The notes beneath the pieces were generated by a model. The model ran no database searches and had not been told where the DNA came from. It saw only the letters and a list, made by a program, of their open reading frames with translations. Position numbers and translations under genes: made by a program. From contig NW_011887292.1 in NCBI RefSeq assembly GCF_000151315.2, forward strand, positions 62,001-126,000: DNA of 64,000 nucleotides. The letters run 5' to 3'. This document shows, piece by piece, positions 12,730-17,574 of this stretch. Origin of the DNA: Capsaspora owczarzaki ATCC 30864. Lineage: Eukaryota; Opisthokonta; Filasterea. The first letter of the stretch is position 1. The number at the start of each line of letters is the position of its first letter.

Positions 12730-13021
12730 GTTGTTGTTGCTGTTGCCATGATGCTGCTGCTATCGGCGTCCTGCGGTTTGCTGCTCGCGTCCGCTGCAGC
12801 TCCTGTTGTTGTTGTTGCTGTTGCCATGATGCTGCTGCTATCGGCGTCCTGCGGTTTGCTGCTCGCGTCCGAACGGCGGCGACGCGGGCTGGGGCTGGAG
12901 CTACTCGCACGGCGGCAAGGCGCTCCACTTTGCGGGGCCAGACCAGAACGGCGGCGACGCGGGCTGGGGCTGGAGCTACTCGCACGGCGGCAAGGCGCTC
13001 CACTTTGCGGGGCCAGACCAG
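12730..13021 (+). repeat. Two back-to-back tandem duplications at the 5' end of the carbonic-anhydrase-related gene
   Basis: A unit containing MMLLLSASCGLLLAS is repeated with a 78-bp period (ATGs at 12748 and 12826). Immediately after, a unit coding NGGDAGWGWSYSHGG is repeated exactly with a 75-bp period (12872 and 12947). Both pairs are near-identical, so they are recent or an assembly artefact. Confidence 0.9.
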
Positions 13022-14555: not shown

Positions 14556-16251
14556 CTAGCGAGGAAGTTGTTGACGCTGAGCTTCATAATACCCTGTCAT
14601 ATAGCCAGCATGGTACCAGGCTGAAAGTAATTGAGCAAGCTGCGGGTCGTACGATGGGGTAATCTGAAAAATACAAAAAAAAAAACCATCAAGAACAAAA
14701 TCCATTTGCATCCAAGTTCGCCCCAGACATGAACTTACACCTCCCCACGCAGCGCAGGCGGTTGGACGAATTGTGAATGATCGACGTTTGGTGTGGCAGT
14801 TGCAGTCAGAGTGGCACTGGCTTCCTCCGAATCGAGGTTGGGTTGGAGCGATTCAAGCTCAACCTCTTCCTTGTTGTTGTATCCAAGATATTTGACGATG
14901 CAGTAAATACCTGCGATGCAATTCAAGCACCAAGACGGGTGAGCATTGAGCTTCCCGGCAACAATCCAACTGAGCGTAAATAATACCAAAAAAACAACAA
15001 CAATCTCACCATCGTCCGAGATTTGCTCAATCACGGCGGGATATTCTCGCTGGTCAACGCTATAAACGGATATGCATTCGTCTCCGACGTGCCACTCGAC
15101 CATGCGTGGCTCGAGACTTGCACTCGCTGTCGGCTGTTTTGGCTTCTTTTTGGCGTTCTCCAGTAGGATTGGTTGGCGTGGGAGGGTTGCAGACGAGCTT
15201 GTATCAGCCTCAATTTTCTGTGAACTGTCGACCTTGGGTGTGCTGGTCGCATTGGCCGTGGCGGATGATGCGGGCGGCTTGGACTTTTCCCCAGCACCAA
15301 GTTCTTCCGATTCGGATTTCGGTGGTGCGTTGGGGAGCTTGTGTGTGCGCCGCACAGCATGCGAACGCTCTGTCGTTGATTTTCGAGAGTCGGATGCCTC
15401 TGAGGACACGTCTGAGACTGAGCCGGAGGACTCCCGTGCAAACAATTGGGTTGAACTGCGCAGCTGGGCCTCCTGCAACGGCTGCGATGCATACTCCTCG
15501 AGCTGTGCAACAGTGGGCGGCAGAAGGTCTTCCAGGCTTTGTCGCTCTTGGTTGCCGTACTCGGTGTACGTGACCCAGCAGTGAATGCCTGTGCACAAAC
15601 CAACAGCCAACAGCGGCAGCCAAGTTTAACACAACGCGACAAGCGATCGCTTCCCCAACCGAAGCAAACCACCACCAAAACAAGCTCAAGTAAACCATAA
15701 GCTCAAGTGAGCCAGAGCGACAATAGCCTCGGGACCCTTTACCATCGGCACAGAGCTCGTCGATGGTTGCATTGTAGACAATTCCGTCCTCAGACCACGT
15801 CGCGCGACACAGATCGCCCTGCTTCCACGCGCGACTGCTGGTTTCTGGCTTTCCCGAGCCCTTGCCGTTGCTTGTCTGACTTGTCGTCGATGACGATGAT
15901 GATGACGATGATGATGATGATGCAGCGTTCTGTCAATCCAAACATTCAGCGTTCAGTTAGCTGCTGCATCGCCTCCCGTCCCAAAACGCACACAAGAGGT
16001 CAGACAAAGACCACTCGAGCGTCTCGTCATACATTGGCACTGGCATTGTGCGTCTCGTCCTTGTGCGACTGGATGGACGCCTGGAAGACCTCGAGCAGCG
16101 ACAGTGCGTCGCGTTGCATCTCAGCCGCCTCCGCCGGTCGAAGCAGTCCACCAACGCCGCTGCTTCCACTCTTCCCTTGGCCAGCATCAGCAGACGACGC
16201 GTTCAGCAGGCCTGAAAAGCTTGTCGTCGTCGTTGTCGTTGCTGTCGCCAT
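14556..16251 (-). CDS. SMN1: Survival motor neuron (SMN) homologue with two Tudor domains
   Basis: Five exons read on the minus strand: 16251-16033, 15929-15743, 15588-15010, 14910-14741 and 14663-14556. Together they give about 420 residues. The N-terminal helix (MQRDALSLLEVF) fits the Gemin2-binding position. Tudor 1 spans exons 2-3 (WKQGDLCRATWSEDG ... YGNQERQSLEDLLPP) and closely resembles the human SMN Tudor, which binds symmetric dimethylarginine on Sm proteins. A charged Ser-rich linker leads to Tudor 2 (WHVGDECISVYSVD ... YLGYNNKEEVELESL). The last exon encodes the YG box (AWYHAGYMTGYYEA), the SMN self-association motif, which rules out SPF30/SMNDC1. Both Tudors are split by a phase-1 intron at the same DG|G position. 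Role: snRNP assembly. Human SMN has one Tudor. Confidence 0.88.
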
Positions 16252-16413: not shown

Positions 16414-17574
16414 ATGCAAGTCGACGGCGCTTCGTCGTCAGTGGCGTTCAGCAGCGGCAGTTCGATCGCAGCGTCGCTCTCTCGCGGCGTGCGTCTCGAC
16501 GTCATGCCATACGCAGAGCAGGATCTCCAAGACGAGCGTAAGGCGGGGGTTGTGGGGCTGGGGCAGAGACAGGCGAGAGGGGAGCGCAATGGCAATGGAG
16601 AGGCAGCGAGAAGGACTCGGACTCTGGCTGAACCGATGCCCTCTCACATCTGGTTGCTTTTTTTTTTGCTTGCTTGTTCCTTCGATTGCGCCAGAGGCAA
16701 GCGCGAACGTGCTGGCGCTCATCCAGGCCGAGATGGCAACTCTGCCGCAGCGCGACTACCTCGCATCGCTCAACTTGCCGGCGTCCGATCAGCTGTTTGC
16801 ATCGCGCCCGCGTCTGCAACAGGAACTAGCGCGGTAGGAGCGCAAGGGTTTTATGCCGGGGTTGAGGAGATTCAGAGATGGAGGGGGGGGAGTGAGAGAG
16901 AGAGAGTCTCACCAGTGCGTCCTTGCTTCCTGGTAGAGTTGCAGCCAAGCAGCCGCTCCAAGCGATTGACATGAGCAGGTACGAATTCCCAGCAATGGAT
17001 GCCAAGAGCAAGTCGGATCCTGCGGCATGGAAGGCATGCATCGACCAGGCACGGATGCTCATTGAATATCAACACACAAGGTGAGCCGCATTTCTCAGAT
17101 TCTCCAGACCACGTTGGCTGCATGTGTTCCGTCTCTATCTGTGGAGACGCATGGGCAGCTCCATCATTAACGTGTTCTGGACCTGTGTGTTTGCTCTGCT
17201 TCATTGACAGGCTGCTCAATCTCGATCTGTTGGCAAAGCACGGCCCGGCTGCGTGGCGTCTCAATGCTGAAATTGTGGCACACCTGCACACACAGCTGAC
17301 AAATCTGCTCAATGAAGCACAGGACGAAATCCAAGAGGTCAATCGGGAACGCAAGGATCAACAGGTAGGGTTTTAGCGTTTTCGTGTTGGTTCCCGTTTC
17401 TGTCCGCTGACACTGATCTCGTTGGCTCCACCGCAGACCAAGCTTTATAACAAACTGTATGAGCTCGAGTCAACCTGGTACAGCCTGGTGGGAAAGAACA
17501 TGCAGCTTGAACAGGAATGCTCCAGGTTGCAAACCGAGCTCGCACGACGAGAAGAGGAAACCGAGCAACAATAA
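16414..17574 (+). CDS. BCAS2: BCAS2 / SPF27, subunit of the PRP19 spliceosome complex
   Basis: Five exons: 16414-16537, 16695-16833, 16937-17080, 17211-17364 and 17437-17574. The family signature is the early LDVMPYAEQ segment (human: VDALPYFDQ), the Q-P-L-x-x-I-D-M-x-R-Y-E-F-P box just after the third exon starts, the LELL-type helix (LLNLDLLAKHG) followed by AWR, and the C-terminal coiled coil with ELESTWYSLVGKN (human: EMESNWVSLVSKN). The protein is a core component of the NineTeen/PRP19 complex needed to activate the spliceosome, in the nucleus. It is transcribed divergently from SMN, another snRNP-pathway gene. Length (about 230 residues) matches the family. Confidence 0.88.

Follow-up and report, generated by a model that had tools for sequence, protein, structure and literature searches.

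The window, a stretch of 64,000 nt of the Capsaspora owczarzaki ATCC 30864 genome, carries a gene for an SMN-type protein in which two Tudor domains are followed by a YG box at the C-terminus. The gene is probably the SMN gene of this genome, with its Tudor duplicated inside the gene. Its assignment to SMN, and as one gene and not two, is supported by the gene model and by the domain matches. No SMN with two Tudors was found in the titles and abstracts of the open-licence PubMed Central literature searched.

The coding span runs on the minus strand from 16251 (start) to 14556 (stop), exactly the interval given for it in the earlier note. Five exons form a CDS of 1263 nt coding for a product of 420 aa, and GT-AG borders are present at all four introns. 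As read from the DNA, the gene would be spliced as follows:

14556..16251, minus strand: SMN-type gene (GT-AG gene model; Pfam SMN_Tudor twice and SMN_YG-box)
16033..16251, minus strand: exon 1, with a putative Gemin2-binding helix at residues 43-65 (weak; no Pfam match)
15743..15929, minus strand: exon 2, Ser-rich start followed by the first half of Tudor 1
15589..15742, minus strand: intron 2, length 154 nt, interrupting Tudor 1 at nt 88 in phase 1
15010..15588, minus strand: exon 3, end of Tudor 1, linker of 138 residues and first half of Tudor 2 in a single open frame
14911..15009, minus strand: intron 3, length 99 nt, interrupting Tudor 2 at nt 88 in phase 1, free of stops and in frame
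14741..14910, minus strand: exon 4, remaining half of Tudor 2 followed by a spacer
14556..14663, minus strand: exon 5, YG box (22.5 bits for the last 49 aa) and stop

The frame is kept only if intron 2 is removed, while retention of intron 3 would keep the frame and add 33 residues inside Tudor 2. The PF06003 score of Tudor 2 rises from 34.4 bits with intron 3 to 40.9 bits without it. Deliberate retention of intron 3 is not claimed, as 33 stopless codons are expected by chance at about 0.22, and the length contributes a further factor of 1/3. Exon 2 was also matched in the PF06003 genome search, at C1:77744-77830. The earlier note had named separate genes for the two Tudors, seen in transcripts, as evidence against its reading; separate genes are ruled out by exon 3, in whose single frame the last part of Tudor 1 continues through the linker to the first part of Tudor 2.

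Two other features were observed close to the gene. A gene for the splicing factor BCAS2/SPF27 (PF05700, E 4.4e-51) at 16414-17574 on the plus strand and the SMN gene lie head to head, with 162 nt between the start codons, and the two splicing-related genes may have a common promoter. At 12871-13021 on the plus strand, where a carbonic anhydrase domain (PF00194, E 1.1e-59) starts, a unit of 75 bp is exactly repeated in tandem (2.0 copies, 100% matches). The repeat may be a recent duplication, an assembly error or part of an intron that was not recognised.

Tudor 1 comprises residues 107-161 and Tudor 2 residues 300-354 of the product. Both were recognised by PF06003 SMN_Tudor, with 58.8 and 40.9 bits, respectively (Pfam cut-off 22.7), and their alignment to each other has z = 9.9 over shuffles, with none of 5000 shuffles scoring as high. 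Among solved structures, the best match of Tudor 1 is SMN (E 1.8e-14), and the best match of Tudor 2 is TDRD3 (2.7e-9), with SMN next (6e-9). SMN_YG-box (PF20635, cut-off 21.3) exceeded its cut-off on the C-terminal piece and remained below it on the whole protein (17.9 bits) and in the genome search (18.9 bits), where this gene was the sole match in the whole genome at E up to 1. The order of two Tudors and a C-terminal YG box described in the earlier note is confirmed. In the YG box, AWYHAGYMTGYYEA, the motif Y-x3-Y-x3-Y is kept, as are the small residues in the form A-x3-A-x3-T, with Ala in place of the third Gly of G-x3-G-x3-G (motifs as given in PMC8287954). Among solved structures, three SMN YG-box chains (E 0.015 to 0.089) were the only matches of the C-terminus up to E 10. 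When the entire protein was scanned with Pfam at E up to 1, SMN_Tudor, TUDOR and SMN_YG-box were the only matches.

The N-terminus is less clear. In a scan for the Gemin2-binding helix, the best window was residues 43-65, and 135 of 5000 shuffles of the N-terminus scored as high; its helix score is 9.0, against 39.5-52.5 for three known sequences, each held out in turn. The WDD motif of these three sequences is absent, and Pfam SMN_G2-BD gave no match in the protein, one such search being silent also in its controls.

With two Tudors, the gene departs from the SMN pattern of a single Tudor (animals) or none (fungi). This was not counted against membership, because the YG box, and not the Tudor, is present in all SMN orthologs as summarised in PMC8287954. 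The statement of the earlier note that yeast SMN has one Tudor disagrees with the same source, in whose account fungal SMN is without a Tudor.

Four of the six candidates from the PF06003 genome search were matched, namely SMN, SPF30, SND1 and an SNF2-type ERCC6L2-like protein. The SPF30 gene (L003) is separate, with SPF30 as best solved match (6.3e-5; SMN 2.0e-4), and its C-terminus is presumably SPF30-like; the two-Tudor gene as the SPF30 of this genome is thereby ruled out. The SNF2-type helicase gene (GDDMGLGKT; L001 1-1641 and L017, C11 at about 1035000, minus strand) has an SMN-like Tudor at its start (PF06003, 32.1 bits) and resembles animal ERCC6L2, although the solved ERCC6L2 Tudor is matched at E 0.33 only.

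Introns 2 and 3 are both at nt 88 of the 165 nt of the gapless 55-codon Tudor alignment and both in phase 1, so the phase-1 intron at the same residue of each Tudor, as noted earlier, was correctly seen. Each splits a single Gly codon, which is preceded by Asp and followed by Ile-(His/Tyr)-Cys. The 'DG|G' junction of the earlier note holds for the nucleotides (G|GC and G|GT) and not for the protein, which has one Gly there and not two. Internal duplication of the Tudor is favoured because the offset and phase are identical and because halves of both Tudors stand together in exon 3. The segment repeated in tandem would have begun inside exon 2, included intron 2 and ended inside exon 3, giving exon 2, an intron, exon 3 (end of Tudor 1, linker, start of Tudor 2), an intron, and exon 4 (end of Tudor 2). 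In SPF30, SND1 and the ERCC6L2-like gene, all three other PF06003 genes of the genome, the matched Tudor stretch is without an intron. The intron position is the only direct evidence for a duplication, and the reading of the earlier note is supported in part. The note had called the shared intron strong evidence; the identical site and the exon layout do favour internal duplication, and the evidence is good, not overwhelming, in view of introns without similarity, the number of G|G sites and indecisive trees.

The plain chance that an independent intron falls on a named site is about 0.3% (from four introns in 1263 nt). If insertion takes place only at G|G, the chance of a match becomes about 1 in 7, an upper bound given by the seven such sites in Tudor 2; against such a restriction, only two of the four introns of the gene, those in the Tudors, are at G|G. 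It is very improbable that the exon sequence was duplicated inside the gene without its intron and that two introns were later inserted independently at one favoured site. Such a site is conceivable, as the junction sequence GATGG occurs once per Tudor domain, at the intron site only, and G|G is found at both junctions. Furthermore, no sequence shared by introns 2 and 3 could be detected (684 of 1000 shuffles score as high), but intron similarity is expected to vanish over long times anyway. Two gains at one of 165 positions would be required, and GG is common to both domains at three aligned positions only, against 11 G|G sites in Tudor 1 and 7 in Tudor 2. Hardly credible is a wrong gene model in which the Tudors are never united in one mature protein, be it through an assembly error, through alternative splicing or because translation starts inside exon 3. 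The model was read from DNA alone, and intron 3 has no stop and keeps the frame; against this, one open exon covers both Tudors, and canonical splice sites restore a gapless Tudor of 55 columns twice.

It is considered unlikely that Tudor 2 derives from a different, TDRD3-like Tudor gene and reached SMN through fusion or exon shuffling, the shared intron then being an old intron of the Tudor family at large or a coincidence. Counted against internal duplication were the introns without shared sequence, the lack of a supported tree branch, TDRD3 as the best solved match of Tudor 2, and the identities over 55 columns, in which Tudor 2 is no nearer to Tudor 1 (22) than to human SMN (22) or TDRD3 (21). 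The remaining pairs are Tudor 1 and human SMN with 29, human SMN and TDRD3 with 20, and Tudor 1 and TDRD3 with 19 identities. Tudor 1 is thus nearer to human SMN than to Tudor 2, with 12 vs 5 discordant columns (p = 0.14). The BLOSUM62 sums for Tudor 2 are 115 with TDRD3, 110 with human SMN and 105 with Tudor 1, and Tyr102, Glu97, Lys126 and Val136 (human SMN numbering) are common to Tudor 2 and TDRD3 and not found in SMN. No branch was supported in a tree of eight Tudors. Smaller trees, from which its two most divergent rows (own SPF30 and own ERCC6L2-like) were omitted, gave different best topologies. With SND1 (six rows), Tudor 1 and Tudor 2 were joined with support 45/45, and Tudor 2 with TDRD3 had p-AU 0.407. 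Without SND1 (five rows), Tudor 2 and TDRD3 were joined with weak support of 59/43, and Tudor 1 with Tudor 2 had p-AU 0.403; because of this tree, confidence in internal duplication was lowered slightly. Against a TDRD3-like source stand the identical offset and phase of the introns and the borders of Tudor 2, which are without the phase-matched introns on both sides that simple exon shuffling would leave. Also, no TDRD3-like Tudor was found in the genome beyond the four known genes (E up to 10), nor near the one RMI1_N locus, although an intron-split Tudor could escape both searches.

No branch reached the support threshold in the trees of eight, six and five Tudors, and none of the tested clades was rejected. 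The earlier note had named a grouping of Tudor 2 with SPF30 or another family as evidence against duplication. SPF30 was the least favoured grouping, with p-AU 0.186 (six rows) and 0.111 (five rows), both above rejection, and TDRD3 remained compatible with the data as given above. Since neither identities nor trees reveal closeness of Tudor 1 to Tudor 2, the internal duplication would be old or Tudor 2 would have evolved fast, and phylogeny is indecisive between the two. A published survey, covering 111 holozoan proteomes (112 according to its methods; PMC12147562), likewise left the relations among its T1, T2 and T3 Tudor types unsettled.

Compared with human SMN1 (PDB 1MHN, 4A4E, 4GLI), the protein has an SMN-type Tudor and a C-terminal YG box as well, but two Tudors instead of one and no clearly recognisable Gemin2-binding helix. 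The TDRD3 Tudor (PDB 2LTO, 3PMT) shares with Tudor 2 the Tyr at the position of SMN Trp102, and differs in the cage at position 127, which is Phe in TDRD3 and Tyr in Tudor 2. To our knowledge, TDRD3 has no YG box and another set of domains. Its Tudor is accompanied by an RMI1-like OB region and a UBA, neither of which was found in the two-Tudor SMN by the whole-protein Pfam scan at E up to 1. SPF30/SMNDC1 belongs to the same Tudor family; the SPF30 of this genome, unlike its SMN, has one Tudor without an intron (22.7 bits, equal to the SMN_Tudor cut-off) and no YG-box match. Folded tandem Tudors are known from 53BP1, UHRF1 and KDM4A, which also have two Tudors per protein. There they form one folded unit, whereas here they are 138 residues apart and therefore probably separate beads. 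No relatives were confirmed in viral contigs. The holozoan survey lists SMN1-2-DC1 as 'Single T1' (PMC12147562).

The methyl-arginine cage of human SMN is formed by W102, Y109, Y127 and Y130, and N132 touches a bound compound (PMC9481570). The positions were transferred to both Tudors in a mapping of our own, whose spacing agrees with the residue numbers of PMC9481570 and PMC3281842. The earlier note had correctly seen that WSEDG of Tudor 1 is YSVDQ in Tudor 2. With position 134, which we take to be a further cage position, the residues at 102, 109, 127, 130, 132 and 134 in the gapless alignment are W, Y, Y, Y, N and E in Tudor 1 and Y, Y, Y, Y, N and E in Tudor 2. The sole cage change in Tudor 2 is Trp102 to Tyr; beside the cage, Tudor 2 has Asn for Gly131 and Val for Gln136. 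The proposal that Tudor 2 had lost identities and so might bind a different ligand was overstated. Tudor 2 is not degenerate, and its ligand is probably still methyl-arginine, because all cage positions are filled by suitable residues.

A preference for different marks by the two Tudors was also considered. At the cage positions, TDRD3 has Y566, Y573, F591, Y594 and N596. It favours asymmetric dimethyl-arginine about 2 to 4 fold, and SMN favours the symmetric form, with Kd 34 vs 97 uM for one peptide (PMC3281842). As Tudor 2 has Tyr102 like TDRD3, Tudor 1 with its Trp cage might prefer symmetric and Tudor 2 asymmetric dimethyl-arginine, which we regard as distinctly unlikely. The SMN mutation W102Y turned the binding of one small compound TDRD3-like, a result for a compound and not for a methyl-arginine type (PMC9481570), and PMC12147562 credits TDRD3 with binding of the symmetric mark. 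The rule that Tyr means asymmetric is weakened because the SND1 Tudor of this genome has Tyr at position 102 (in-register alignment) while human SND1 prefers symmetric marks (PMC3281842); human SND1 carries Phe there (PMC9481570). If the two Tudors did differ in this way, one oligomeric SMN would read marks of both methyltransferase classes, and Sm-core assembly would be tied to factors marked by type I enzymes, for which animals use separate proteins.

The protein most likely acts like SMN. Its YG box would form oligomers, Gemin2 may be bound by an N-terminal helix, and each Tudor would recognise dimethyl-arginine in RG-rich tails, for example the tail of SmD1, with Tudor 2 adding avidity or another mark preference. 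Gemin2 (PF04938) was recognised in two stretches at one locus on C16, with 36.5 and 22.9 bits (43.1 together; cut-off 27). PRMT5 is present, PRMT_C matched seven stretches at five places in the genome, and the Sm-fold 14 stretches. The genome (27.5 Mb) also has six T-box stretches on two contigs, as fits a unicellular holozoan. RG-dense stretches were found at three of the 14 Sm-fold loci scanned (L022, L028, L032), that of L028 following a sequence which we take to be SmD1-like.

Loss of SMN causes spinal muscular atrophy, and the contribution of the SMN Tudor is not simple, as fungi do without it. With two cages differing at one aromatic residue, this SMN is a natural experiment for the study of valence and of mark preference. 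The gene also represents a probable domain duplication that may have brought its intron along.
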